Positions 8,791 through 21,689 of a stretch of 64,000 nucleotides of DNA are shown here, one piece after another. Positions within the stretch are counted from its first letter, which is position 1. Every line of letters begins with the position of its first letter. The position numbers and the translations under genes were made by a program. Source of the stretch: Sphingomonadaceae bacterium PASS1 (lineage in GTDB: Bacteria; Pseudomonadota; Alphaproteobacteria; Sphingomonadales; Sphingomonadaceae); assembly GCA_002255985.1 (NCBI GenBank), contig NKIR01000002.1:62001-126000 (forward strand), in the 5' to 3' direction. The notes under the pieces are model-generated. The model saw only the letters and a program-made list of their open reading frames with translations, made no database searches and had not been told where the DNA came from.

Positions 8791-10347
8791 TCAATGGTCA
8801 GTGCAGGCGAACAGCAATATCTCGTTCGGGGCGGGCGGCACTTGCGCTGCAATCGCCTTATTCATATTGTCGATATTGGTAAGCTGGCCCGCGTCCGTTG
8901 TACATGTCTTCACGTCATAACGCTGACGCGCTTCGCGGGCGGAACGCATGGCTTCTGTACCAGGCAGAAAACGCTCGATACGATAAATATTGGTGTCGGG
9001 GGCGTAACTCGTAACCGAAATTTGTGCATCATTGTTCGGCACAAAGCCTCGGATCCATCGGCCACCGCTTTCGACATATTGTGTGCGGCCGTTGACGCAT
9101 CCGTCCGGCCGCCATGTGAAATCAACATCGGCGGTATCGGACATGGTGATACGGCTGCGTTCGGGCTGCAGCACGCATATTTTGGCCACTTCCGTCACGG
9201 CAGCTTTGACCGCTTTGTCCTGCGGCGCATCCGCGGTTAGGGCCGCACGCACCCTGTCATCGACTTCGTCGAAAGAGGGGCGCGCTGCAAACATACCGAC
9301 CGCCGAAACCAGTAATATCGTGCCCGCAGCGGCAGCCGCCTTGAAACGATCACTTTGCGCACGCTCCGAAAATTGCCACGCTGCGCCGCCGGCGACAGCA
9401 CTTAAGACCAGCAGCAAAACCGCAAGCGCAATATGGTTTTCGCGGGACGATATGACTGCGTGCTCGGCGTCACTGCGCACTTTGCCTTCACGGCTGCGTT
9501 GCAATTCGGCAGCGACGCGGGCTTCTTTCTCGACCTTGGCGCGGGTGGCAGCTTCAAGTTCCGCCTCAGCGCGGGTCAATTCCGCGACCGAGCGGCAATC
9601 ACCACGAACCGTTCGGAAGGCGACGCCTTGATTGTCGAGAAATGCCGCAAGCTCGCGCGTTGAAATAGCGAAATAGAACTCGGCCCCGCCATCGTTCGCT
9701 ACCGATCCAAAGCTGTTGATACCAACAACGCGGCCACATGCATCGACAATCGGCCCGCCGCTATTGCCCGGTGCAATAGGCGCGGTGTGCAAAAGCGATT
9801 CAACGGACTTCGATGTCCGGCCTGAAGAAATAGTGCCCCGCGTTTTAACAGGCGGTTGAGGCCGCAGCACGTCCGCCTCGCTTTGTTCAAGCGCGACATC
9901 CACGCTGGCCGGATAACCAATTGCGAAAACATCCGCGCCATCGGATACCGTGCCCGCAAATATGCTCGCGGGGACCAACGCCCCCGAAGAAAGCTGCAGG
10001 AGCGCAAGGTCCTTGCGCGCGACCACGGCGGACACCGTGGCGCGATAGCTTTGCGTCCCATCGGAGGGGACGACAACAATTTCAACACTATCGTCGAAGC
10101 GCGCCTGTTCCACGACATGTGCGTTGGTAATGACCTTGTTCCGGTCAACAACCACGCCGGAACCAATGCTGACAATGGTCTGCTGGCCTTCTGCTGAGCT
10201 AAAAACGATAATGCGAACGACACTGCGTGCCGCAGCGTTAATATCGCTTGCGTCCGCATATAAGGGGGTCGCAACGACCGTGCCGAGAAGCAATGCCAGG
10301 GCGAGCGCAAGTTTTCGAATAGTTGAACGTAAGGAACGAACGACCAT
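8791..10347 (-). CDS. Membrane-anchored trypsin-like serine protease (S1C/HtrA-like)
   Basis: After a signal segment (residues 12-32) comes a trypsin-like domain with the full triad: His77 in TNAHVV, Asp113 in RKDLALL and Ser196 in APGNSGGP. There is no PDZ domain. Instead a charged coiled coil (about residues 250-295) leads to two membrane segments (HIALAVLLLVLSAVAGGAAW and AAGTILLVSAVGMFAA) and a soluble C-terminal region with a DFTWRPDGCVNGRT stretch. The start ATG at 10347 overlaps the PBP stop codon as TGATG; a GTG one codon earlier is possible. It probably acts in the periplasm on envelope substrates, but no substrate can be inferred. Confidence 0.85.
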   Translation of the reverse strand: MVVRSLRSTIRKLALALALLLGTVVATPLYADASDINAAARSVVRIIVFSSAEGQQTIVSIGSGVVVDRNKVITNAHVVEQARFDDSVEIVVVPSDGTQSYRATVSAVVARKDLALLQLSSGALVPASIFAGTVSDGADVFAIGYPASVDVALEQSEADVLRPQPPVKTRGTISSGRTSKSVESLLHTAPIAPGNSGGPIVDACGRVVGINSFGSVANDGGAEFYFAISTRELAAFLDNQGVAFRTVRGDCRSVAELTRAEAELEAATRAKVEKEARVAAELQRSREGKVRSDAEHAVISSRENHIALAVLLLVLSAVAGGAAWQFSERAQSDRFKAAAAAGTILLVSAVGMFAARPSFDEVDDRVRAALTADAPQDKAVKAAVTEVAKICVLQPERSRITMSDTADVDFTWRPDGCVNGRTQYVESGGRWIRGFVPNNDAQISVTSYAPDTNIYRIERFLPGTEAMRSAREARQRYDVKTCTTDAGQLTNIDNMNKAIAAQVPPAPNEILLFACTDH

Positions 10348-12455
10348 CACCGAGAGCCCGGCGCTGGTCGCGTTTCGGGCGGAGCAGGCTGAATATTCAC
10401 ACCGTCACGGTCAAGCTTGACCTCCACCGGCACGCCACCGACCTCGGTGTTGACGGTTACACCTTGGCCTTGGTCAATCCGAACTTCAGCGTTGCCAACA
10501 TCGACTGGAAATTCGCTGAGTTCCGGTAAATCCAACGGTTCGATCGGGCCTTCGGGATCAGGTTGCTGACGCGGCTTAGGCCTTGCCGCAGGCGCCGCAT
10601 TGCGGATCGATTGCGCCATGAAATCGCGCCAGATGCGCGCCGGCAAACCGCCGCCGTTAACACCGCGCAACGGGGTGTTGTCATCATTGCCAATCCAGAC
10701 CCCGACCACGAGGTCACCCGCAAATCCGACAAATAATGCGTCGCGATTGTCCTGGCTTGTTCCAGTTTTGCCATAAGCGGGGATGGACAGCCGCGCCGCG
10801 CGTCCGGTCCCCTTATTGACCGTCGCACCCAGCAAATCGAGCAACATCCCGTGCGTACGACTGCTGAATGAACGTGGTCCGGAAAACAACCACTCGATCC
10901 AGCCTTGCTCTTCGCGTTTGATGGCGTGCGGTTCAACGGGCCACTGGTTCCCCGCAACCCCAGCATAGGCAGCCGTCAACTCCATTAGCGTCAGGCCCGA
11001 ACTGCCCAACGCCATGCTCTGATCCATGGTCAATGGACTGCGCACGCCCAGATCCGTTGCCGCGCGTGCCACCGCTTCGCCGCCAACTTTTTGATACAGG
11101 CGCACCGAAGCGACGTTGCTTGACTGGGCAAATGCCTGCTCCAGCGTAATGTCACCGCGGTAATTTTGTCCCGAATTTTTGGGGCGATACGCGCCTTCAT
11201 TGATCGGCGTATCGGCAATCAACGATTCCGGCGTCATCCCCGACCGGAGCGCCGCCAGATAGACAAACAGTTTGAAGGTCGAACCCGGCTGCCGTTTTGC
11301 CTGTGTCGCGCGGTTGAAGGCAGAATCTTTATAGCTTCGGCCACCGACCATGGCGACGACTTCGCCATTGGGGCGCATCGCAACAAGCGCAATTTGGGCA
11401 TTGCCAACGGCGGATCTCGCCACGACCTTGCGGGCGATGTTCTGCAATCGCGCGTCCAATGTCGTGGTAATCCTGACGTCGGCATAACCGCTGTCGGTCA
11501 GCAGCCGTGCTTGGGGAATGGCCCAGTCCGCAAAATAGGTGCCCGTCGGCAGCGTTTCCCGCACGCGAACATCAAGCCGCGCGACCGGTGTCGCGTCGGC
11601 CTTGGCCCGCGTAATGACATTATTGGCGACCATTGCATTCAGCACCAATTGCGCCCGCTTGGCCGCCCGTTCGGGGTTCTTTGTCGGGGCAAGCCGCGAC
11701 GGCGCCTGCACAAGGCCAGCGAGCATCACCGACTGGCTGAGCGTCAGACGCTCTGGCTGTCTGTAGAAATAATGTAAGGACGCTGCGCGCAGGCCGTAGA
11801 CATTGTCCCCAAAATAGACGTTCGACAAATAACGCTCAAGAATTTCGTCCTTCGTCAAACGCCCTTCCAGCCAGAAAGCGATGAGCATTTCGCGGGCCTT
11901 GCGCGTCAGGCTGCGCTCCGGCGTCAGAAACGTGAATTTCGCGAGCTGCTGCGTAATCGTGCTTCCGCCCTGCGTCATTCCGTTACCAAAAGTATTCGAC
12001 CAAAACGCACGCGCAAGGCCGCGGGGATCGATACCGAAATGCGAATAAAACCGGCGATCTTCGATGGACAAAAACGCCTGCACGACGTGCGGGGGCAGCG
12101 TGCCGACATCAACCGGTTTGTCGACGATAGCGCCGTTCCGCGCGATCGGCGTGCCATCCGACGCCAGCAGCGTAATACGCGGCGGTGCGATGGGCTGAAG
12201 CGACTTGGACAATGGCGCCGTGATCGCAAGCCATAAAATCAACAGGATAAACAGGCCAAGCAGGGCCGCGCTGATACGGCTAAACCACCACCAGCGGGTT
12301 TTGCCCAAGATAATGCGCCGTGTCGACGCTGGCTTTGCATCGGGATTCCGAGGCTGCGGGTCATCGGGAAAGCGCTGCGCATAGTCTTCACCGAAGGCCG
12401 CAAGTCGGCCGTCAATATCCGAAGGAATGTCAGAAGAGGAGCGCCGGAAAAGCAT
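10347..12455 (-). CDS. Class A penicillin-binding protein (PBP1A family)
   Basis: This bifunctional enzyme polymerises and cross-links peptidoglycan. The 702-residue protein has a cytoplasmic N-terminus, a membrane anchor at about residues 59-80, a GT51 glycosyltransferase domain (IEDRRFYSHFGID with catalytic Glu132; GGSTITQQLAK) and a transpeptidase domain with SxxK at Ser392-Lys395, SSN at 445-447 and KTG at 563-565. The C-terminal tail is acidic and proline-rich. It is the first gene of a run with the protease, binding lipoprotein and DUF4112 genes, which suggests a shared envelope role. Confidence 0.93.
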   Translation of the reverse strand: MLFRRSSSDIPSDIDGRLAAFGEDYAQRFPDDPQPRNPDAKPASTRRIILGKTRWWWFSRISAALLGLFILLILWLAITAPLSKSLQPIAPPRITLLASDGTPIARNGAIVDKPVDVGTLPPHVVQAFLSIEDRRFYSHFGIDPRGLARAFWSNTFGNGMTQGGSTITQQLAKFTFLTPERSLTRKAREMLIAFWLEGRLTKDEILERYLSNVYFGDNVYGLRAASLHYFYRQPERLTLSQSVMLAGLVQAPSRLAPTKNPERAAKRAQLVLNAMVANNVITRAKADATPVARLDVRVRETLPTGTYFADWAIPQARLLTDSGYADVRITTTLDARLQNIARKVVARSAVGNAQIALVAMRPNGEVVAMVGGRSYKDSAFNRATQAKRQPGSTFKLFVYLAALRSGMTPESLIADTPINEGAYRPKNSGQNYRGDITLEQAFAQSSNVASVRLYQKVGGEAVARAATDLGVRSPLTMDQSMALGSSGLTLMELTAAYAGVAGNQWPVEPHAIKREEQGWIEWLFSGPRSFSSRTHGMLLDLLGATVNKGTGRAARLSIPAYGKTGTSQDNRDALFVGFAGDLVVGVWIGNDDNTPLRGVNGGGLPARIWRDFMAQSIRNAAPAARPKPRQQPDPEGPIEPLDLPELSEFPVDVGNAEVRIDQGQGVTVNTEVGGVPVEVKLDRDGVNIQPAPPETRPAPGSR

Positions 12456-12538
12456 CGCGTGGCTGTATTATATCGATATAACGGTGAATGCGAGGCTATA
12501 TTTGCGCTTTTTGCTGAACGTCAGATGAAGACGCTTTT

Positions 12539-13396
12539 TTAGCGTCCGCCGGCATCCAACCAAGATTGTCCAAACATCTTATCAAGCGCAATCGGATTGA
12601 ACTTATCCAAGCCCGACCCCGGGTAAAATGTCATCTCGCCAAACAGCGGCGTACCATCGATTTCGTAAAAATCGCAGCGCACGAAATCAAACCCCCGGGC
12701 CAATGTTTCCGCCGCGTCGAGCATACGATCCAGCGATTTCGGACAGACTGGGTTAGCATCCGCCGTGGCCGCAGAAACACGGGCCCAGTTGCGATCCAAC
12801 ACAATCCAACGGTGCCGTTTTTCGCGTTCAAGATGCACCTGAACATAGGTTGCCCGTCCGCCGAAGACAAAAATCTTATAATCGATGGGCAGTTGACCCT
12901 GCGTCCCAACAAAGGGCTCGACCAGCAGTCCGCGCGGAATTTGACCATATAGCCATTCATCCAGCCAGCGACCATAAGTCCGCTTGACCCATTTTTTGGT
13001 GCGCGCACGCACCGACGGCCAATCAATATCTTGTTCGCGCACAAATATATTCTGGTTACATCCGTGCCGCGATTTCAGTACAAATGGTTGTGGCCAATCC
13101 GGAAAATTCGGAACTTCAGTCCCATGCCAAAGGGTGGGGATCACCCATTCGTTCCCTAGCAATGCGGCCACGTGCGCCTTTACGGCGACCTTGTCCGCCA
13201 GCGTAACCATGCGCTGATCGCGGTTCAGCAGCTTGCGACACTGAACCAGTTCGTTGAAGGTTGTGGGGGCGTCAAGATTGACGCTTTTTTGATGGCGAAC
13301 CAGATAGCATAGCTTAACCCGCAGGCGTGCCAACGCGCCGGCCTTTGTGCCGTGCGCTCCCGCCGTTTCAGTGCCGACGACATCAGTGCCAATCAA
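12539..13396 (-). CDS. TupA-like ATP-grasp ligase
   Basis: The 285-residue protein matches the TupA-like ATP-grasp group by pattern: an N-terminal helical segment (DAPTTFNELVQCRKLLNRD), the ATP-lysine loop PFVLKSRHGCNQNIFV, then IPRGLLVEPFVG, DYKIFVFGGRATYVQVHL and the metal-binding RCDFYEIDGTPLFGEMTFYP. ATP-grasp enzymes ligate a carboxylate to an amine through an acyl phosphate; TupA itself works on teichuronopeptide. The start is a TTG at 13396 that overlaps the TGA of the DUF1989 gene. As third gene of a tight operon with a heme N-oxygenase and a DUF1989 protein, it may couple an amino acid to their product. That is inference. Confidence 0.8.
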   Translation of the reverse strand: MIGTDVVGTETAGAHGTKAGALARLRVKLCYLVRHQKSVNLDAPTTFNELVQCRKLLNRDQRMVTLADKVAVKAHVAALLGNEWVIPTLWHGTEVPNFPDWPQPFVLKSRHGCNQNIFVREQDIDWPSVRARTKKWVKRTYGRWLDEWLYGQIPRGLLVEPFVGTQGQLPIDYKIFVFGGRATYVQVHLEREKRHRWIVLDRNWARVSAATADANPVCPKSLDRMLDAAETLARGFDFVRCDFYEIDGTPLFGEMTFYPGSGLDKFNPIALDKMFGQSWLDAGGR

Positions 13397-13983
13397 GCAG
13401 CTGGCTCGATTTCATAATGTATTGGTTTGAATGATCCATTGTTTGACTGAAGCGCAGAACAGGCCGTAAGGCCAATGATAAGATCGGCATGCGCCAAAAA
13501 TCTTATGCTATCGCCCGCGCTGCTCAGCGGCGGATCGCCGCTCAGAACTCCGGTCGCGCCATCAATTGCGACATTCATAAAGCAATTAAATGCGACGGGG
13601 ATCATATCCTCAGTGATGCCGAAGGGCGCAAGTGCGCCTGCAAGGTTTCCAAAGCAGCCCTGATGCGGATCGGTATCGCCATAGATAATTCGGAACGTAT
13701 CCTTGCTACACGGCGTAAGCAGGAAATCATGGCGCCCTACATCGTCCGCAACAATTTCCAACATCACGTTGCTCCGGTTGGAATATAATAGGTCGCCCGT
13801 GGTGAGGAACAAGCGGCTGGCATAGTCCAGCGTCCGCCCCGACGAAATGACTTCGCCGATGTCGCCTTGATGAAACGCAAGCAAGTCCGCCACCTGTTCG
13901 CCCATCGGGTCGGTGACAATTAGGATATCACCCTTGTTCAACGTAAACGCCACGCCCGATCGCGGCTCAATCTGTGATGGCAT
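13393..13983 (-). CDS. DUF1989 / urea-carboxylase-associated family protein
   Basis: The 196-residue protein has the DUF1989 pattern: an N-terminal small beta domain (IEPRSGVAFTLNKGDILIV, GEQVADLLAF), then DVGRHDFLLTPCS, YGDTDPHQGCFGNLAGAL with candidate metal ligands, IPVAFNCFMNVAIDG and HADLIIGLTACS. Relatives include the paired subunits that deiminate carboxyguanidine in guanidine breakdown. The start at 13983 lies 17 bases inside the upstream N-oxygenase gene, and its stop overlaps the start of the ATP-grasp gene. No guanidine or urea carboxylase is present here, so its substrate is probably different. Confidence 0.85.
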   Translation of the reverse strand: MPSQIEPRSGVAFTLNKGDILIVTDPMGEQVADLLAFHQGDIGEVISSGRTLDYASRLFLTTGDLLYSNRSNVMLEIVADDVGRHDFLLTPCSKDTFRIIYGDTDPHQGCFGNLAGALAPFGITEDMIPVAFNCFMNVAIDGATGVLSGDPPLSSAGDSIRFLAHADLIIGLTACSALQSNNGSFKPIHYEIEPAA

Positions 13984-14683
13984 CAAGTAACTCCAAATCA
14001 GGATGCGTTCCGGCGCGTTGATATGGGCATTTCCATCCGCTTTCCACTGCCCTGCCGCTATACTGACGCGCGGCCGAAACCTCACCATGTTTGGCGAGCA
14101 TGGGGTTTATCGTCCCTGCAATTTTGACATCGCGATCCAAAATCGACGCGCGGAGCTTTTCATATTGGTTAGTCTCGCGCAGCTGTTCGAATTGGTCATG
14201 CAAATTGAAGATCATCGTCGGCCAGATAAACCTGCGGGCAGGACGACTGGCCCGCCGATGAAGGCCGACCACAAAAAACGCCTCCCCACCAAAGCTCAAT
14301 GAAAATTCGGGATGGTTTGGATCATGCGCAACGCGGCTATCGCATTCTTGACCAAGCAAAACATCCTTGTCGCTTAACGACTGCAGGCGCTTCCATAGCT
14401 GTTGCTCAAAGCTAAGCTCATCCATTGCCGTGTCATCTTCGAATATAACCGCAAGCGAACGGAAAGGCGCCGGGTTCTGGCGATAGCGTTCGACGATCTC
14501 CCTAATTTTTTCATGGATCGCAAGGTCATCCCAGGCAGAGGTGATATCGCGTGCAACAACAAAGGTCATTTGTTGTTTAGCCATTGCGGCCTTCGCGCCC
14601 ACGCACGGAAATAAGGGATCGTGTACGAATTCTTCGAACGCGGTAATGAGCCGATTTTGGATAACGGGTACTGTATGGAGCAT
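13967..14683 (-). CDS. YqcI/YcgG family heme-dependent N-oxygenase (GntA/DcsA-like)
   Basis: The 238-residue protein shows the family pattern: FPCVGAKAAMAKQQ near the N-terminus, RSLAVIFEDD, the block HDPNHPEFSLSFGGEAFFVVGLH, RRFIWPTMIFNLHDQFEQLR, and the closing DREVKI-like segment RDVKIAGTINPMLAKHGE. Characterised relatives are DcsA, which N-hydroxylates arginine in D-cycloserine synthesis, and GntA, which N-hydroxylates a cyclic guanidine in guanitoxin synthesis. Both bind heme. A guanidino or amino N-hydroxylation is therefore the best guess. It leads a three-gene operon with overlapping ends; its own Shine-Dalgarno is poor. Confidence 0.85.
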   Translation of the reverse strand: MLHTVPVIQNRLITAFEEFVHDPLFPCVGAKAAMAKQQMTFVVARDITSAWDDLAIHEKIREIVERYRQNPAPFRSLAVIFEDDTAMDELSFEQQLWKRLQSLSDKDVLLGQECDSRVAHDPNHPEFSLSFGGEAFFVVGLHRRASRPARRFIWPTMIFNLHDQFEQLRETNQYEKLRASILDRDVKIAGTINPMLAKHGEVSAARQYSGRAVESGWKCPYQRAGTHPDLELLDAITD

Positions 14684-14877
14684 GAAGAAAGAACGATTAG
14701 ACGGCGAAATGGTTTCAAATCGTTCTGCTTATTAGCGCCGTTCATCGGCAAATACCGACGGTCCGCCGAAGGATATGAAACCGCTGACCTCTAAACCAGA
14801 TATGGTGTGCATTGCCAACACGCGGGCCGCCTGCAAATTGAGCAGCTATCGCCCAAGTTTGCTAACATTGGACCTAG

Positions 14878-15870
14878 CTAGGCTTTGCCGAGGTCGCCTT
14901 TACCGACGGTCCCGCTTGCCATTTCAAGCATCCGGTCAAGGCTCTTCTTGGCGGCCAAACGGACGGTTTCGTCGAGATGAATCTGCGGCTGAAGGTCGCG
15001 CAGCGCGAGATACAGCTTCTCCATCGTATTGAGCGCCATATAGGGGCAGATATTGCAGGCGCAGTTGCCGTCAGCCCCCGGCGCACCGATGAAGGTCTTG
15101 GTAGGTTCCGCCTTTTCCATCTGGTGAATGATGTGCGGTTCGGTCGCGACGATGAGCGTGTCGCCCTTTATCGTCTGCGCATATTGCAAGATACCGCTCG
15201 TGCTGCCGACATAGTCCGCATGATCGATGATATGCGGCGGGCATTCGGGATGCGCTGCCACGGGAACGCCGGGATGCTGCGCTTTCAATTTCAACAGCTC
15301 GGTTTCCGAAAACGCCTCATGCACAATACAAACGCCCGGCCACAACAGCATTTCACGGTTGAACTTACGGCTCAGATAGCCACCCAGATGCCGGTCGGGT
15401 CCAAAGATGATCTTCTGTTCGGGGGGAATTTGGCTCAAAATCGTTTCGGCACTTGAGGACGTGACGATAATATCAGACAGCGCTTTCACTTCCGCCGAAC
15501 AATTGATGTAGGTCAGCGCGATATGGTCGGGATGTGATTCCCGGAAAGCCTTGAATTTTCCGGGTGGGCACGCATCTTCCAATGAACAACCCGCCGCCAT
15601 ATCGGGCAAAATGACCGTCTTTTCCGGGCTCAATATTTTCGCGGTCTCGGCCATGAACTTGACGCCGCAAAAAGCGATAACATCCGCGTCGGTTTCCGCC
15701 GCACGCTTGCTGAGTTCAAGTGAGTCACCGACGAAATCGGCAAGGTCCTGAATTTCCGGCTTTTGATAATAATGCGCGAGAATGACCGCATTGCGTTCTT
15801 TTTTCAGTCGCTTAATTTCAGCGAGCAGGTCAAGTCCTTGCAGATTTTCGCGGGCTACAGGGGCGTTCAT
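14878..15870 (-). CDS. nadA: Quinolinate synthase A
   Basis: NadA condenses iminoaspartate with dihydroxyacetone phosphate to quinolinate, using a 4Fe-4S cluster held by three cysteines. The 330-residue protein has NAVILAHYYQKPEIQDLADFVGDSL, FCGVKFMAETAKILSP, LPDMAAGCSLEDACP, TYINCSAEVKA, and the cluster cysteines in AAGCSLEDAC, AHPECPP and ACNICPYM. Its partner enzyme nadC is at 5289-6137. The gene stands alone between two gaps of about 110-190 bases. Confidence 0.96.
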   Translation of the reverse strand: MNAPVARENLQGLDLLAEIKRLKKERNAVILAHYYQKPEIQDLADFVGDSLELSKRAAETDADVIAFCGVKFMAETAKILSPEKTVILPDMAAGCSLEDACPPGKFKAFRESHPDHIALTYINCSAEVKALSDIIVTSSSAETILSQIPPEQKIIFGPDRHLGGYLSRKFNREMLLWPGVCIVHEAFSETELLKLKAQHPGVPVAAHPECPPHIIDHADYVGSTSGILQYAQTIKGDTLIVATEPHIIHQMEKAEPTKTFIGAPGADGNCACNICPYMALNTMEKLYLALRDLQPQIHLDETVRLAAKKSLDRMLEMASGTVGKGDLGKA

Positions 15871-15979
15871 GCTATCGTACCTTTGCGTTGCAGCATTGTC
15901 ATCTGCGTCTCGAGTGAAGTTCTATGTGGTCGGTAGGGCCGATCGAAACAAGTTCTGGCGGGCGCTTTTACGGTGTTTT

Positions 15980-16891
15980 TTACGGGATTAAATGCCAACC
16001 TTCGCCTTGGGCCGCGACCCGGCCCTGATTTTGCAGATCGATGAGATGCGCCAATACCGACCGACCGGCAGCGCCTGTGAGACGCGGATCGAGGCCCTTA
16101 TACATCGCAGCGACCATATCGGGAATGTGCCCCTCGCCTGCCTCAAGCAATTTCAGAATCTGGCGTTCACGCTGGCGACGATGACCAATCATGCCGCGCA
16201 CAAGCTGCCTTGGCTTTTCGACCGCTGGTCCATGTGCGGGGTAATAAATGCGATCCGTGCGTTCATATAATTTTTGCAGAGACGCCAGATAGTCGCTCAT
16301 ATCGCCATCGGGCGGGCTGACGACGCTGGTGGACCATTTCATGACATGGTCGCCGGTAAACAGCGCCCCGCTCTCGACCAGTCCATAACATATATGGTTG
16401 CTGGTGTGGCCGGGGGTAGCGACGGCTTCCAAAGTCCACCCGTCGCCTGAAATACGCTCACCGTCGGAAAGGATGCGGTCGGGTGCGTAATCCGGGTCAA
16501 AAGCACTATCGGAACGCGGGCCATCGTCGCGCAACACAAGCGGCGCACAACCAATGATGGGCGCGCCGGTCGCCGCCTTCAACGGTGCCGCCGCTGGCGA
16601 ATGATCGCGATGCGTGTGCGTGCACATGATGGCCGCAACACGCTTACCGGCAACAGCGCGCAAGATGGCCTCGACATGACCATCGCCATTGATATCAGCC
16701 GGATCGCCGACGCTCATCCCGGTACCGACTGGGCCCGGGTCGATAATTGCAACATCGGATCCTGCGCCAACCAACCAGGTTTGCGTGCCCGTATAGGTAT
16801 ACGGCGAGGCATTGGGGGCAAGCACGCGGCGCACGAGGGGTTCGTGCTGCTCGGTTTCGCCAGCGTCTATGGTATCGGGCCAGTTGCTCAT
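15980..16891 (-). CDS. MBL-fold metallo-hydrolase (LACTB2/glyoxalase-II-like)
   Basis: The protein has the metallo-beta-lactamase signature CTHTHRDHSPAA, then ATPGHTSNHICYGL, LFTGDHVMKWS and PAHGPAVEKP, followed by a winged C-terminal helix region typical of LACTB2-like hydrolases. This set resembles RNA or thioester hydrolases more than true beta-lactamases, which lack the C-terminal helices. The ATG at 16891 (MSNWPDT) is preferred over one six codons upstream. It lies just downstream of the BlaI/M56 terminator and reads the same way, so it is probably a separate transcription unit. Confidence 0.85.
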   Translation of the reverse strand: MSNWPDTIDAGETEQHEPLVRRVLAPNASPYTYTGTQTWLVGAGSDVAIIDPGPVGTGMSVGDPADINGDGHVEAILRAVAGKRVAAIMCTHTHRDHSPAAAPLKAATGAPIIGCAPLVLRDDGPRSDSAFDPDYAPDRILSDGERISGDGWTLEAVATPGHTSNHICYGLVESGALFTGDHVMKWSTSVVSPPDGDMSDYLASLQKLYERTDRIYYPAHGPAVEKPRQLVRGMIGHRRQRERQILKLLEAGEGHIPDMVAAMYKGLDPRLTGAAGRSVLAHLIDLQNQGRVAAQGEGWHLIP

Positions 16892-16926
16892 GAAGGGGCT
16901 ATGGCGCAATGTGGCGCAAAGAAAAA

Positions 16927-16950
16927 GGGGCGGTTCGCAAAAACCGCCCC
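16927..16950 (-). terminator. Rho-independent terminator of the blaI-M56 operon
   Basis: GGGGCGGTT at 16927-16935 pairs perfectly with AACCGCCCC at 16942-16950 around a six-base loop. Read on the minus strand the stem is followed by TTTTTC. It sits 39 bases after the M56 gene stop. Confidence 0.85.
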
Positions 16951-16989
16951 AACTGTTATGTCAAATGTGGAGCGTGGGAAGAGTGCCGT

Positions 16990-18597
16990 TTATTCCGCTG
17001 CGTCGCCTTGCGCTTCCAGCTTCCGAATTTGCAGATCGATTTGTTTGACAACATCTTGGCGAACGCCCTTGGGCATTTCTTTGTCCTTCTCAATTTCGTT
17101 ACGCGCCTCGCGCAAGCCTTTGATCGCTTCGGCCAGCGTTTTATGGGGGACGAGGCCTTTGCCGCACATAACCAGCCGGACGTGGGATTTTTGCTTGCCG
17201 TCGAACCCGCGGACATCGGTGGTCACCGGTTGGCCTTCACGACAGTCCTTGGTCATTTCACGAATATCGATTTCGGGGATGTAAGAGGCGATATCCATGC
17301 CGCCCATGCCGCCCATGACGCGAATGGTTTCCACGCGGCGGATTTTGGCGGGCGCGGGCGTATTGCCTTCGGCACCCTTTGCACTGTCGGCCTGCGCCAC
17401 AGCATCTTCAGCCTCTTCCCGCGATTTTTCAGCCCCATCGATCAATTTTACAACTTCTTCCGGCGACAATTTCTTATCGGTGCGGAAGATGAACGTTTTC
17501 CCGCCGCGTTCGACCTTGGTCACTTCGCCGCCCGATTCGTCCTGACCGACTATGTCCATCGTCTCACCGTCACGTTTCAGCTTAATTATCCGGACCTCGC
17601 GCTTGACCACTTCAGGCTTGCTTTCTTCAGCCGCCACTTTGTCCTGCGCAACGACCGCGGGGACTATTGTGGCGGTCAGCGGCAATATGATCGCAGCAGC
17701 TGCTATTATGCCAATCTTGCCAAGCGAACGGCGGGTATTGCTGGTGTCCTTCATCGTTATTCTCCTCAATCGCTCAATTATTGTTTTCGGTGAATTCAGT
17801 GCCGTCGCAAAGGTCGGCACGCCGTCAAATGCGGTTTTTGCCAACGCCTGACCGTACATCGCACGCTCTTCCGGGCCCTTGCCGGCAAGCACGCGGGCAT
17901 CGCATGCCGCTTCCTGATCAAACCGGAATGCGTTCCAGCTGATCCACGCAACGGGGTTGAACCATTGCAGGCACAATATGATGAAAGCGGCGAGATTGGC
18001 GAACAGATCGCCCGATTTGTGATGCGCCATTTCATGCGCAATCGCGAGGTTACGTTCGGCAGGCGAATAGGCTTTGGTAAAATCCTGCGGCACCGCGATC
18101 ACTCGATGAAAAAGGCCAAAAGCCAATGGTCCGGCTACCTGATCCGATGCGACGATTTTGACGCCATCGACAACTGCGATGTCTGTGGCTTCGGCCAAAA
18201 GGTCATCGCGCATTGCGGCGTAGCGGATCATTTGGATCATGAACAACAGCACCGCGCCACCAAGCCAGATCATCACACCGAGTGCCAGAAAATCAATCGT
18301 CGGGAGGGCATCAACCGGGTTCGCCGCAGTGGCCATAGCATCCGGGGACGATAGCCCGGCGAGTACAGCGTCCCTTACCGCGTCTTGGACGGCAATGCCG
18401 CCGTCAGCTGTTGAAATGGATGGCCCTTCGATCGTGGGCATACACACACGGGCAGCGGGTATAAGCCAAAGCGCATATGCGATGGTCGGACCAAAATATT
18501 TGGCGACAGGGCGCCGTACAATCAAAATGGCCGCCATCAGCAATGTCGTGGTCAATAAGGTATCAAACAGCCAAGCGCCCATGAAGTCAGTGCTCAT
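16990..18597 (-). CDS. M56 (BlaR1/MecR1-type) membrane metallopeptidase sensor
   Basis: The 535-residue protein begins with membrane helices and carries the gluzincin motif HEMAHHKSGD with the downstream glutamate in FDQEAACDARVLAG, as in the protease half of BlaR1/MecR1. Its C-terminal half does not look like the penicillin-sensing domain. It is a long charged region with VKREVRIIKLKRDGETMDIVG, FRTDKKLSPEEVVKLID and MGGMGGM, so the signal is unknown. By analogy with BlaR1 it should cleave the co-encoded repressor. Start and upstream stop overlap as ATGA. A terminator follows. Confidence 0.88.
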   Translation of the reverse strand: MSTDFMGAWLFDTLLTTTLLMAAILIVRRPVAKYFGPTIAYALWLIPAARVCMPTIEGPSISTADGGIAVQDAVRDAVLAGLSSPDAMATAANPVDALPTIDFLALGVMIWLGGAVLLFMIQMIRYAAMRDDLLAEATDIAVVDGVKIVASDQVAGPLAFGLFHRVIAVPQDFTKAYSPAERNLAIAHEMAHHKSGDLFANLAAFIILCLQWFNPVAWISWNAFRFDQEAACDARVLAGKGPEERAMYGQALAKTAFDGVPTFATALNSPKTIIERLRRITMKDTSNTRRSLGKIGIIAAAAIILPLTATIVPAVVAQDKVAAEESKPEVVKREVRIIKLKRDGETMDIVGQDESGGEVTKVERGGKTFIFRTDKKLSPEEVVKLIDGAEKSREEAEDAVAQADSAKGAEGNTPAPAKIRRVETIRVMGGMGGMDIASYIPEIDIREMTKDCREGQPVTTDVRGFDGKQKSHVRLVMCGKGLVPHKTLAEAIKGLREARNEIEKDKEMPKGVRQDVVKQIDLQIRKLEAQGDAAE

Positions 18598-18965
18598 GAT
18601 TTCATCTCCCTCAACAGTCTTTCGATTTCGGATATGTCAGCGTCGCTCAGCTTTTCCTGCTCGGCAAGATGCGCAACAAGCGGCATGAATCGCCCCCCAA
18701 AAAGCCGGTCAACCAGGCGTTTGGATTCATGCGACACATAATCCTCGCGATCAATGAGGGGTGAGTACAGGAACCGACGTCCGTCGGCGCGATGTTCAAC
18801 AGCCGCCTTGGTCAGCAGGCGCGACAGCAAGGTTTTCACGGTTGGTAACGACCAATCACGATCATCCGGTAATCGCGCAGCGACGTCTGTCGCCGTCAAC
18901 GGTGCGCGTTCCCATAAGATTTCCATGATTGTTAATTCAGCGTCGCTGATACGTTCTGATGACAT
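18594..18965 (-). CDS. BlaI/MecI/CopY family transcriptional repressor
   Basis: The 123-residue winged-helix protein reads ISDAELTIMEILWERAPLTATDVAARL, then DWSLPTVKTLLSRLLTKAAVEHRADGRRFLYSPL, with the protease-sensitive dimerisation region after it. These are the usual BlaI family features. The ATG at 18965 has GGAG nine bases upstream; a longer frame would run through the operator and is rejected. It forms an operon with the M56 sensor gene and very likely represses itself through the palindrome at 18978-19011. Confidence 0.92.
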   Translation of the reverse strand: MSSERISDAELTIMEILWERAPLTATDVAARLPDDRDWSLPTVKTLLSRLLTKAAVEHRADGRRFLYSPLIDREDYVSHESKRLVDRLFGGRFMPLVAHLAEQEKLSDADISEIERLLREMKS

Positions 18966-18977
18966 TGTGAAATCTCC

Positions 18978-19014
18978 GACTACAGATGTAGTCGATTCGA
19001 CTACATCTGTAAAC
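18978..19014. promoter_or_regulatory. BlaI-type double operator upstream of the repressor gene
   Basis: Two 15-bp arms at 18981-18995 and 18997-19011 form a perfect palindrome around a single T. Each half contains the BlaI half-site pair TACA-nn-TGTA; the first is itself a perfect 7-bp repeat, GACTACA-GA-TGTAGTC (18978-18993), and the second (18999-19014) is GACTACA-TC-TGTAAAC. Two abutting BlaI dimer sites just before the start codon fit autorepression. Confidence 0.85.
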
Positions 19015-19165
19015 GTCATTTGTCTGCCATTGTCGGTTTTTTGTCGAATTTCTTTACATATGGCCCAAAGGTAAACGACAGAATCAGCATTCATGCATCT
19101 GATATAAAACGTTTTTTAGTGTATGGCATGACCAATGCATTTACGGTCATGTTCAACACCCACTC

Positions 19166-19213
19166 AGCGAGGACGGGTGGTTTGCTTCTGGTCTCGCACC
19201 ACCCTTCCTCGCT
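19166..19213. repeat. Strong stem-loop between the repressor promoter and the TonB receptor
   Basis: AGCGAGG...GGGTGGT (19166-19181) pairs with ACCACCC...CCTCGCT (19198-19213), with a two-base internal loop. It may be a second terminator for the receptor gene or a barrier between the two transcription units. Confidence 0.4.
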
Positions 19214-19235
19214 TTCTCTCCTGAAATTTGAAAAC

Positions 19236-19274
19236 AAAAAAGGCCGAAACCCATCAATGATTCCAGCCTTTTTT
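19236..19274 (-). terminator. Terminator of the TonB-dependent receptor gene
   Basis: AAAAAAGGC at 19236-19244 and GCCTTTTTT at 19266-19274 form a stem with a T-run on the minus strand, 22 bases after the receptor stop codon. Confidence 0.6.
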
Positions 19275-19295
19275 GTACGCCTTATGGGCTGTTGG

Positions 19296-21689
19296 TTATT
19301 TCGCGCCGAAATTGATCTTTGCAGTTACGCCAACATACCGATCCGCCTCACGGGGGATGATGTAGCGATATGCACCGCCAGGGCCACCCGATACGATCGA
19401 GGAAGCAAAGCTTTTATCGAACAGGTTCTTTATCTGCAGCGCGAGCCGCCATCCATCGTTAGGATCAACCAAAGCTGCTGACACATCGACAATCGCATAA
19501 CCTTCTACGGTCGAACCAAGGCGGACAGCCGGGTTCGCACTCGCTTCGTAAATCTGGTCGGACTGGCTTGAGATCTGGCTTGCCAACTCGATATTCGCAA
19601 AGCCCGAAGTTTCAATGTTATATTGTGCGCCAAACGACATTTTCCATTTTGGTGCGTTCGCCAAAGGCGTGCCCTTGGCAACCAATTGTGATGCGTCAGC
19701 ACCCGGTGGCAAGCGGAAATTCTCAACCTGCGCCTTGTTGTAAGCAACGCCGCCCGAAAGCGAGAAGTTACGCAATGGCGTCGCAACAAAATCAAGCTCG
19801 AAACCTTGGGTCGATACCGAACCTGCATTTGTCAGGCGCGTGGTGCGTACGCCGGCTACGAAGTCTGGGCTGTTTGCCTGATAATTGTTATACTTGGCAT
19901 AATAGGCCGCGAGGTTAAGAATCAGGGCGCCGTCGAAAAGGGTGTTTTTCAAGCCCACTTCATAAGCGTTGACCGTTTCTGGTGCGATAACACCAGCGCC
20001 GGGTGTCGTCAGGTTATAGAAGATGTTGTAGGCAGGGCCCTTATAACCACGCGTGTAGCTCGCATAAGCCATATTGTTTTCTGTGAGGTCTGCCTGAACA
20101 GCTGCCTTACCCGAAAGGTTATTGTTGCTGGTGCTGGTGGTGAAGGGAACGCCGTTTGAGACGCCTGCAACAAAGCCGGTAGCGGGCGCGGTTGCCACGA
20201 GACCGTTATTGTAAACGCCAGCGTCAAAGCTTGGTTGCACACCTGGACCTGCGAGCGAGGTACGGCGGATATGGTTTACATCCAATTCGTCATTTGTGTA
20301 GCGCAAGCCACCAATAAAACGAAGGCTGTCGGAAAGGTTGAGCGTGGCCTGACCATATAGCGACATGTTTTTGAACGTCGAGCCAAAGTCCGCGGTTCCG
20401 GCAGGGGTTGTGATCGTCGAAGCCCCTGCAGCGGTCGAACAAGGTACGAGGCCAGGCACAACCGCAGCGAGGGTCGATGCTGAACAGGTAATCACGCTGC
20501 GCGTGAATGTACGGTCAGATTCGGCCTTTGAATAATATGCCCCGACGACATATTCGAGGAATTCGCCGGTCGGCGAAGCAAGGCGAATTTCCTGGCTAAA
20601 GGTATTCGATGTTTGCGGTCCATTATCGTGCAATTGGTTCAAACCAACATAGGGCCGGTCGAGCCAGTCACCATCGCGGATTTCGGTATTATCCCAACCA
20701 CGATAGCTGGTGATCGACGTCAAGCTATGATCACCCAATTCGATATCTGCTTGCAGCGCAATGCCCCAGCTTTCTTCCTTAGTCGTGGTAACAAGGTTCT
20801 GCCGAATGTTGCGTGAATCCGCGGCATCGAAGCCCGTTCCAGCCAGCGCAAGGGCGGCTGCGTTCGTTGGCGTGTTGCCAATAATTTCGGCGCAGCAATC
20901 ATCATTGGCTTTGCGGTAATCGGCGCGCAGCGTCAGCATGATCTTTTCGCTAACGTCGGCCTCAATCGCGCCACGAACACTGTAATGTTCATAGCCATTG
21001 ACCTTGTTGCCTGTGGTCAGATTGTTGACGTTGCCGTCATAGCTTCCGTAAAATCCGGTGAAGCGCGAACGCACATTGGCGCTCAGCGGCACGTTAACGG
21101 TCGCACGACCGCGATATTCGGATTTCGTGAAGAATGAACCTTCAACGGTCGCGCCGAATTCTGCTGTCGGACGCTTCGTTACGATGCTGACAACACCAGC
21201 CGATGCGTTCTTTCCAAACAATGTACCCTGCGGTCCGCGCAGGACTTCGATACGCTCAACGTCGAACAAATCGGTGAAGCCTTCACCAGCGCGGCTCAAG
21301 ACAACGCCGTCGAGAACGGCAGCAACCGATGGTTCAGCAGCAATCGAAAAGTTGATGGTACCGACGCCGCGCAGGAACAGTGCCTGGTTAAGTGAAGTAC
21401 CCGCCTTGCGGAAGTTCAAGCTTGGAACGAGATACTGCGCATTTTCAAGCGTGACACCGCCATTATTGGCAATCGCCTCGCCGCCGACAACGGATACAGC
21501 GAGCGGAATATCCTGCAAACGCTCTTCACGCTTTTGCGCGGTTACGATGATTTCTGCATTGGCCGATTCATTTTCTGCTGGAACGGTCTGCGCCATCGCG
21601 GGCAGGCTGACCCCTGCCATAATCGCGGCGCTTGCGAGCAACGAAGCGCGAATGAAAGACGTTTTCTTAAATTCAGAACTGAACATCAT
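19296..21689 (-). CDS. TonB-dependent outer-membrane receptor, linked to the sulfoquinovose locus
   Basis: The 797-residue protein has a signal peptide (ending PAMAQ), a TonB-box region (AEIIVTAQKREERLQDIPLAV), a plug domain (LFLRGVGTINFS, VERIEVLRGPQGTLFGKNASAG) and a 22-strand barrel ending in an aromatic-rich strand with YVGVTAKINFG. Sphingomonads use such receptors for glycans and other large solutes. It is divergent from the sulfoquinovosidase operon across a 212-base gap, so uptake of sulfoquinovose glycosides is a fair inference, not shown by sequence. GGGAGGTA precedes the ATG. Confidence 0.9.
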   Translation of the reverse strand: MMFSSEFKKTSFIRASLLASAAIMAGVSLPAMAQTVPAENESANAEIIVTAQKREERLQDIPLAVSVVGGEAIANNGGVTLENAQYLVPSLNFRKAGTSLNQALFLRGVGTINFSIAAEPSVAAVLDGVVLSRAGEGFTDLFDVERIEVLRGPQGTLFGKNASAGVVSIVTKRPTAEFGATVEGSFFTKSEYRGRATVNVPLSANVRSRFTGFYGSYDGNVNNLTTGNKVNGYEHYSVRGAIEADVSEKIMLTLRADYRKANDDCCAEIIGNTPTNAAALALAGTGFDAADSRNIRQNLVTTTKEESWGIALQADIELGDHSLTSITSYRGWDNTEIRDGDWLDRPYVGLNQLHDNGPQTSNTFSQEIRLASPTGEFLEYVVGAYYSKAESDRTFTRSVITCSASTLAAVVPGLVPCSTAAGASTITTPAGTADFGSTFKNMSLYGQATLNLSDSLRFIGGLRYTNDELDVNHIRRTSLAGPGVQPSFDAGVYNNGLVATAPATGFVAGVSNGVPFTTSTSNNNLSGKAAVQADLTENNMAYASYTRGYKGPAYNIFYNLTTPGAGVIAPETVNAYEVGLKNTLFDGALILNLAAYYAKYNNYQANSPDFVAGVRTTRLTNAGSVSTQGFELDFVATPLRNFSLSGGVAYNKAQVENFRLPPGADASQLVAKGTPLANAPKWKMSFGAQYNIETSGFANIELASQISSQSDQIYEASANPAVRLGSTVEGYAIVDVSAALVDPNDGWRLALQIKNLFDKSFASSIVSGGPGGAYRYIIPREADRYVGVTAKINFGAK

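Follow-up and report, generated by a model that had tools for sequence, protein, structure and literature searches.

Organization of the locus

This study concerns a three-gene locus at positions 12539-14683 of a 64,000-nucleotide (nt) stretch of DNA from Sphingomonadaceae bacterium PASS1 (GenBank assembly GCA_002255985.1, contig NKIR01000002.1, positions 62,001 to 126,000 of the forward strand), which is referred to here, at its full length, as the window. A scan for open reading frames (ORFs) and Pfam families identified three ORFs on the minus strand, which encode a YqcI/YcgG protein (PF08892; hereafter YcgG), a DUF1989 protein (PF09347) and a TupA-like ATP-grasp protein (PF14305). The gene content given in a first-pass annotation of the sequence is thus confirmed. 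That annotation proposed a fixed three-gene pathway, and it missed a stress promoter. As described below, comparisons across genomes point instead to the first two genes as the conserved element, with a promoter motif for the general stress sigma factor EcfG upstream of the pair in many relatives. Coordinates are collected in Table 1.

The most likely start of the DUF1989 gene is the ATG at 13983, which gives a 17-nt overlap with the end of YcgG; the ORF can be extended to an opening at 14088. The overlap of the TupA-like gene with DUF1989 depends on a TTG start lying within the DUF1989 stop (TTGA). Because the N-terminal extension implied by this TTG is largely kept in the nearest relative (L129), the start is plausible, although other starts are possible. 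The source genome, of 3.07 Mb, contains one DUF1989 match.

Table 1. Features of the YcgG-DUF1989 locus and its flanks, in window coordinates
Feature	Position	Strand	Evidence
YqcI/YcgG (GntA-like) heme-enzyme relative, 238 residues	13967..14683	-	PF08892 E 5e-53, profile 1-211 of 211
DUF1989 protein, 196 residues	13393..13983	-	PF09347 E 1.8e-50
TupA-like ATP-grasp protein, optional third gene	12539..13396	-	PF14305 E 2.9e-28, profile 3-239 of 241
EcfG-type promoter-like site GAAAC-N16-CGTT	14692..14716	-	one mismatch to GGAAC-N16-CGTT
nadA (quinolinate synthetase), conserved upstream flank	14878..15870	-	PF02445 E 9.1e-119
Bifunctional penicillin-binding protein (PBP), conserved downstream flank	10347..12455	-	PF00912 + PF00905
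Block present here, absent in congeners G131 and G083	12548..14876	.	nadA-PBP flank comparison

YcgG and DUF1989 form a conserved pair

Our order survey covered 296 Sphingomonadales genomes, with PF08892 in 89 of them (97 genes), PF09347 in 104 and PF14305 in 29. DUF1989 lies directly downstream of YcgG, always on the same strand, for 86 of the 97 YcgG genes, with 21-54 nt between the profile ends and, under the chosen start sites, a 4-nt gene overlap in 48 of the 86 adjacent pairs. This arrangement is far beyond chance. At the level of genomes, 87 have both genes, two have YcgG only, none has a DUF1989 of the paired clade only, and 207 have neither; for this count the clade was drawn at a fork with 90/90 support that leaves G004 and G018 outside.

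The 11 unpaired YcgG genes fall into three classes: six have a DUF1989 farther off on the same contig (G094, G151, G235, G134, G119 and G291), three are additional copies, their genomes having a pair as well (G128, G164 and G226), and two are in genomes without any DUF1989 of the paired clade (G013 and G118). The proteins of the last class lie outside the subfamily of the window YcgG, scoring 26 and 92 bits, respectively, with the subfamily profile, although the G013 protein reaches 179 bits with the Pfam model. The G013 match (G013:C12:51260-51880; L124) is situated within a 3451-residue open frame and has the Cys motif PCHFG; this frame is possibly a megasynthase fusion or an overlap of frames.

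A second set of relatives consisted of 80 of 558 confirmed loci, mostly from Sphingomonadales and Methylobacteriaceae and overlapping the order set in species. In this set 69 loci are paired. Each of the other 11 genomes has a DUF1989 of the paired clade at another place, with a match exceeding 300 bits, and in eight cases this gene adjoins another YcgG copy. At that other place, three Methylobacteriaceae have the reversed order, DUF1989 then YcgG. A draw across the phylum found YcgG in 22 of 398 genomes; pairing holds for 20 of the 21 loci L209-L229, which take in the window itself and several order loci again, and the unpaired L229 is a second copy in its genome.

The pair is also found on plasmids of Comamonadaceae, Deinococcus and Bacteroidota. 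Among the best 30 of 422 plasmid records, the 14 best DUF1989 matches (51.5-69.1%) adjoin the 14 best YcgG matches, and DUF1989 matches beyond these are at most 38.5%. A search of 50,697 phage records gave one match, MT836826.1 (L238), an unverified and unannotated 8.6-kb faecal 'bacteriophage' contig that holds a YcgG (39.8% identity) with DUF1989 beside it and may be bacterial DNA.

Protein distances among YcgG and among DUF1989 are correlated (r 0.758 for 181 pairs with 168 distinct YcgG sequences, versus 0.144 for the best of 300 shuffles), a correlation to which shared descent contributes. We conclude that, in the subfamily of the window YcgG, the two genes are genuine and nearly obligate partners, and that the YcgG-DUF1989 pair is the unit.

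Two plasmids show other arrangements of interest. In Sphingomonas insulae (L237, 6624-8004), a nucleoside deaminase gene and then a helix-hairpin-helix gene come after gntA and DUF1989, with overlaps of 4 nt. On a conjugative plasmid of Rahnella sikkimica (L235, 5941-11226), a gntA-labelled gene without DUF1989 heads a different cluster, comprising a short-chain dehydrogenase/reductase (SDR) oxidoreductase, a 2Fe-2S protein, a LysE exporter, a PheT-beta-like protein and a MOSC protein.

A DUF1989 clade with a predicted metal site

In a tree of 82 sequences, paired DUF1989 proteins form a single clade on a long branch (90/90), apart from the tandem genes of the CgdAB type and from the single genes of G004 and G018. 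From the order survey, the tree takes in 44 pairs, 16 of the 27 tandem pairs and all eight whole unpaired single genes. The clade has members from Sphingomonadales, Methylobacterium, Acetobacteraceae, Comamonadaceae, Deinococcus, Hymenobacter and Chryseobacterium. Six unpaired DUF1989 also fall within it, all from genomes with YcgG, so that the clade has so far been found either beside YcgG or in the same genome.

Three cysteines of the window protein, C92, C110 and C175, are invariant in both alignments of DUF1989 relatives (44 of 44 and 41 of 41), and H107 is present in nearly all. By alignment, these four residues match C263, C279, C343 and H276 of the DUF1989 domain of the trimethylamine N-oxide (TMAO) demethylase Tdm, whose corresponding cysteines bind zinc according to the parts of PMC12560246 consulted. 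The three cysteines are therefore predicted to form a metal site; the AlphaFold2 model of the protein is confident, with a mean predicted local distance difference test (pLDDT) score of 91.3. Tdm differs in being a protein of about 790 residues with a second domain, and the window DUF1989 scores 65.8 bits with the Tdm model, whose cut-off is 1100.

CgdAB (UAAP1/UAAP2) belongs to the DUF1989 family as well, and one of its two tandem subunit groups shares the three cysteines. The other group (14 sequences aligned, from the tandem genes of L240-L255) has two of the three replaced, which suggests a non-catalytic subunit. The window protein is far below the cut-offs of both urea-amidolyase-associated models (63.9 of 205.95 and 94.3 of 284.7), is encoded by a single gene in a separate clade rather than by tandem subunit genes, and has no carboxylase among the window neighbors scanned.

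Predicted active-site residues of YcgG

The window YcgG passes the NCBIfam GntA model NF041366, with 237.2 bits against a cut-off of 145. The GntA label is broad, because it is also carried by proteins of Deinococcus, Chryseobacterium and Streptomyces, and we treat the name as a family label without pathway assignment. The AlphaFold2 model of the window YcgG is likewise confident (mean pLDDT 85.1).

Cys27, in the motif PCVGAKAA, is invariant in two alignments of relatives (49 of 49, taking in 48 of the 96 other order-survey proteins, and 57 of 57), and a PC[VLIT][GA] motif occurs in 96 of the 97 order-survey proteins. Thiolate heme ligands are described in the sections consulted for AglA, the guanidine N-hydroxylase of the argolaphos pathway (Cys44; PMC12866846), and for ChmN (Cys47; PMC10849742). 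Cys27 is predicted to be their counterpart. AglA is also a PF08892 protein, and in a weak alignment read by hand its R166, F152 and F182 fall on the invariant R150, F137 and F165 of the window protein, with Q177 on N160. The AglA arginine is the one assigned to the heme carboxylate and the two phenylalanines are those assigned to clamping the substrate (PMC12866846, in part). Different from AglA is the partner, which here is DUF1989, and there are no phosphonate genes among the window neighbors scanned.

Taken together, residues of the two proteins support a fit with guanidino chemistry, so that the pair-level idea of the first-pass annotation, which placed a heme enzyme and DUF1989 in such chemistry, gains from Cys27, from the weakly aligned R150, F137 and F165, and from C92, C110 and C175. 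Comparison with other YcgG systems shows both likeness and difference. The window protein is above the model cut-off for GntA, the guanitoxin N-hydroxylase, whereas its gene neighbors are unrelated and of the housekeeping type; none of the other guanitoxin pathway genes is among the window neighbors scanned. D-cycloserine biosynthesis likewise joins a YcgG enzyme (DcsA) to a partner that splits hydroxyguanidine (DcsB). DcsB is arginase-like, and its place is taken here by DUF1989; the only arginase-family match of the source genome is on another contig.

An EcfG-type promoter motif upstream of the pair

The EcfG motif GGAAC-N16/17-CGTT and its variants have been published for Sphingomonas melonis and Sphingopyxis granuli, where the motif lies within about 100 nt of the gene, as it does here (parts of PMC6599016 and PMC7083833). 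The exact motif, with either spacing, is present upstream of YcgG at 12 of the 97 order loci compared with 6 of 760 control genes (Fisher p 2.4e-8), and at 21 of the 80 loci of the second set. In 174 upstream regions of 520 nt there are 33 exact sites, all located 20-99 nt before the start of the YcgG profile.

Dereplication at 80% identity left 106 loci, for which the interval 25-125 nt upstream was compared with four 100-nt bins farther away. An exact site occurs in the near interval at 15 of the 106 loci and at none in each farther bin; with up to one mismatch, the counts are 58 versus 5, 3, 4 and 4. Permuted boxes gave a mean of 0.14 exact sites and a maximum of 2. Several motif variants were tried, and the rounds favored the same position. 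Loci with an exact site include those of Sphingomonas, Nitratireductor and Methylobacterium. In the window, the EcfG-like site ends 9 nt before the YcgG ATG, and at L129 both promoter boxes are kept while the spacer has diverged. Split DUF1989 genes have a site within one mismatch in 3 of 11 cases. The source genome encodes NepR, one of the core components of general stress signaling.

The motif enrichment indicates that EcfG may switch on the module in many alphaproteobacterial lineages, and a stress promoter suggests a role in stress physiology rather than in a conventional biosynthetic cluster. No YcgG or DUF1989 gene is named in the regulon passages and Table 1 consulted in PMC6599016 and PMC7083833. 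We also compared 14 published S. melonis EcfG sites directly with the YcgG upstream regions and set the comparison aside, as it gave two matches, each with 6 mismatches.

The TupA-like gene is an occasional companion

Adjacency in relatives, on which the three-gene proposal turned, is common for the two enzymes and rare for all three genes. TupA is directly downstream of the pair, in the same order and on the same strand, at 9 of the 97 order loci, leaving 77 of the 86 adjacent pairs without a neighboring TupA; in the second set it is downstream at 2 of 80 loci (L129 and L148). At L308, DUF1989 is followed by TupA and YcgG is elsewhere. The three-gene loci require three changes on the YcgG tree and include a supported clade of seven, and in the TupA tree linked and free copies are intermixed. 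Other genes in the third place include those for DUF421-type and small membrane proteins and for a nucleoside deaminase.

The flanks of the locus provide a view of its gain and loss. In two closer congeners, G131 and G083, whose flanks are 93% identical at the DNA level, the PBP gene comes immediately after nadA and the 2.3-kb block is missing whole, the G083 boundary agreeing to within about 27 nt. The same absence is apparent in G279 at lower identity; for G180, G071 and G152, nadA alone aligned. In congener G181, TupA is alone between nadA and the PBP gene, with no YcgG or DUF1989 match. Given this site and the TupA-less pairs, TupA can exist apart from the pair, and the pair apart from TupA. 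Within the genus, the three-gene block is also gained or lost as a whole. TupA is thus an occasional companion that would be dispensable for the core function, and the fixed three-gene pathway of the first-pass annotation is not supported. A related TupA-like amidoligase domain, that of Cj1438, belongs to the same ATP-grasp family and is reported, in the part of PMC11800379 consulted, to form an amide (Cj1438C); the window protein differs in not being fused to a glycosyltransferase.

Neighboring genes

The window neighbors scanned are nadA, the PBP gene, a trypsin-like protease, a metallo-beta-lactamase-fold protein, an M56 peptidase and a penicillinase-type repressor. The last two constitute a sensor-repressor pair a short distance upstream of the locus (16990-19094), in which a Penicillinase_R repressor is followed by an M56 peptidase of the BlaR1 type.

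Biosynthetic-cluster neighbors were considered and rejected, as Pfam tallies of 130 immediate neighbors and 130 control genes revealed no shared metabolic partner. The neighbors are 130 of 163, after manual exclusion of 20 that were chiefly long genes and also comprised two near-copies, the nadA of the window and one ORF lying antisense to TupA, and the controls are 130 of 150 drawn from 340. Neighbor genes were called by a codon model, which trims starts and calls some false ORFs; calling by longest ORF gave antisense ORFs. The commonest neighbor families include DUF421 (7), Crp-like (6), and HWE kinase and sigma-70 domains (3 each), none of which is among the 25 control families shown, of 180. 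We regard these as a weak lead.

Hints of substrate are thin. In Chryseobacterium, a cyanophycin synthetase gene is near the YcgG-DUF1989 pair; cyanophycin synthetase makes an arginine-aspartate polymer. In Sphingopyxis (L183, L198 and L168), a single YcgG is beside genes that we take, by eye, to be cyanophycinase, isoaspartyl peptidase or cyanophycin synthetase-like. A second YcgG copy in Methylobacterium sp. 2A (L165) adjoins genes that by eye resemble the ergothioneine genes EgtB and EgtD, and the S. melonis EcfG list includes a TIGR03440 protein and a methyltransferase (PMC6599016, in part).

Proposed function and alternatives

Since the pair travels together and carries a stress switch in many relatives, it probably makes or removes a small nitrogen compound under stress. 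The reading toward which we lean, with somewhat more belief than doubt, is that the two enzymes constitute a module of the general stress response, which would N-hydroxylate a guanidino compound and then hydrolyze what is formed; a ligase would be an optional addition. Direct computation gave the partnership, the specificity of the clade, the promoter motif, the conserved residues and the gain or loss of the block; what we infer is the heme binding, substrate, reaction order, product and benefit. In this scheme, the EcfG sigma factor would induce the module in many alphaproteobacterial lineages. YcgG, as a thiolate-heme enzyme, would N-hydroxylate arginine, or a compound derived from it, at the guanidino group, as its family suggests. 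DUF1989, as a three-Cys metallohydrolase, would act on the N-hydroxyguanidine by deimination or hydrolysis, which would lead either to an N-hydroxyurea-type product or to clearance of the intermediate. Where it has joined the operon, the TupA-like ligase may couple an acid and an amine and so alter the product.

Several observations weigh against this scheme. The YcgG family profile matches AglA weakly (E 0.069), and in the weak alignment the substrate-binding R179 of AglA falls on H162 of the window protein, so that the substrate may differ from that of AglA; tentatively, the guanidine clamp would be kept and the contact to the substrate backbone changed. None of the three weaker plasmid YcgG records examined, of seven (two from Streptomyces and one from Rahnella), has an adjacent DUF1989 listed, and the Hymenobacter DUF1989 match is in two pieces with no listed gene there. 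The EcfG-like site of the window carries one mismatch, and the leader that it would leave is very short; 48 of the 106 dereplicated loci have no site within one mismatch. EcfG is described as exclusive to Alphaproteobacteria (PMC3892343, in part) and the pair also occurs outside that class, so that stress control would be a feature of lineages. Control by a guanidine riboswitch was considered and rejected: a scan of 20 loci, the window's own among them, at Rfam gathering scores gave only a tRNA, and at E up to 5 window positions 10000-19500 gave five weak matches to other families, all below gathering score. Finally, the neighboring genes point to no substrate.

An alternative is a three-gene biosynthetic operon for one dedicated small molecule, in which YcgG hydroxylates, DUF1989 tailors and the ATP-grasp protein ligates. 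The recurrence of the same gene order and strand at three places in the YcgG tree, one of them a supported clade, speaks for it, as do the joint absence of all three genes in G131 and G083 and the coupling of DUF1989 to TupA at L308. Moreover, the gene list of the argolaphos cluster places an ATP-grasp ligase gene beside the YqcI/YcgG gene AlpD (PMC8976061, in part); AlpD is probably AglA, both having 274 residues. We nevertheless consider such an operon unlikely, given the large majority of pairs with no TupA beside them, the solitary TupA of G181 and the mixing of linked and free copies in the TupA tree.

The module might also be catabolic or detoxifying: a guanidino compound that accumulates under stress would first be N-hydroxylated and afterwards split, either to dispose of it or to recover nitrogen. 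DUF1989 relatives reportedly act in guanidine catabolism (the carboxyguanidine deiminase CgdAB), and at most order loci there is no third gene that recurs across loci, both of which would suit this role. It is made improbable, in our estimation, by the lack of a guanidine riboswitch in the regions scanned and of a carboxylase or allophanate hydrolase among the 25 neighbor families shown, of 116, and oxidation would be a costly route for guanidine disposal. A further scenario makes the module a source of nitric oxide or nitroxyl, set free from N-hydroxyguanidine under stress, and so a stand-in for bacterial nitric oxide synthase, whose first half-reaction is an arginine N-hydroxylation. Against this very unlikely scenario, we know of no DUF1989 enzyme with chemistry that releases nitric oxide or nitroxyl, and the sequence holds no direct pointer to such release; in its favor, by analogy, ChmN of the YqcI/YcgG family can oxidize arginine twice (PMC10849742, in part).

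Significance

Among the matches listed in our search of the literature, mostly of non-subscription sources, none joins YqcI/YcgG with DUF1989 or with the general stress response (parts of PMC2922099 and PMC12508155 also belong to this base). The association of the YcgG-DUF1989 pair with an EcfG promoter is new here. The characterized YqcI/YcgG enzymes are encoded in clusters for antibiotics, toxins or metallophores (PMC10849742 among the sources, in part), whereas the YqcI/YcgG described here has a single dedicated partner, with which it makes up a small module that stands alone. This module is found on both chromosomes and plasmids, in lineages that range from Sphingomonadales to Deinococcus and Bacteroidota.

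A more far-reaching version of the two-enzyme scheme, which we regard as doubtful, is that the pair constitutes an undescribed arm of the alphaproteobacterial general stress response: a mobile oxidase-hydrolase module would convert cellular arginine to a reactive N-hydroxy metabolite that slows replication or protects against oxidants. If so, the metabolite would either donate nitric oxide or resemble hydroxyurea, and in some lineages a TupA-like ligase would join it to another molecule.

Of the genes that depend on EcfG in S. melonis Fr1, about 40% are without assigned function (PMC6599016, in part). On the two-enzyme reading, a DUF1989 clade and part of these unassigned general-stress genes would gain a testable chemistry, consisting of one oxidase, one hydrolase and one class of substrate.

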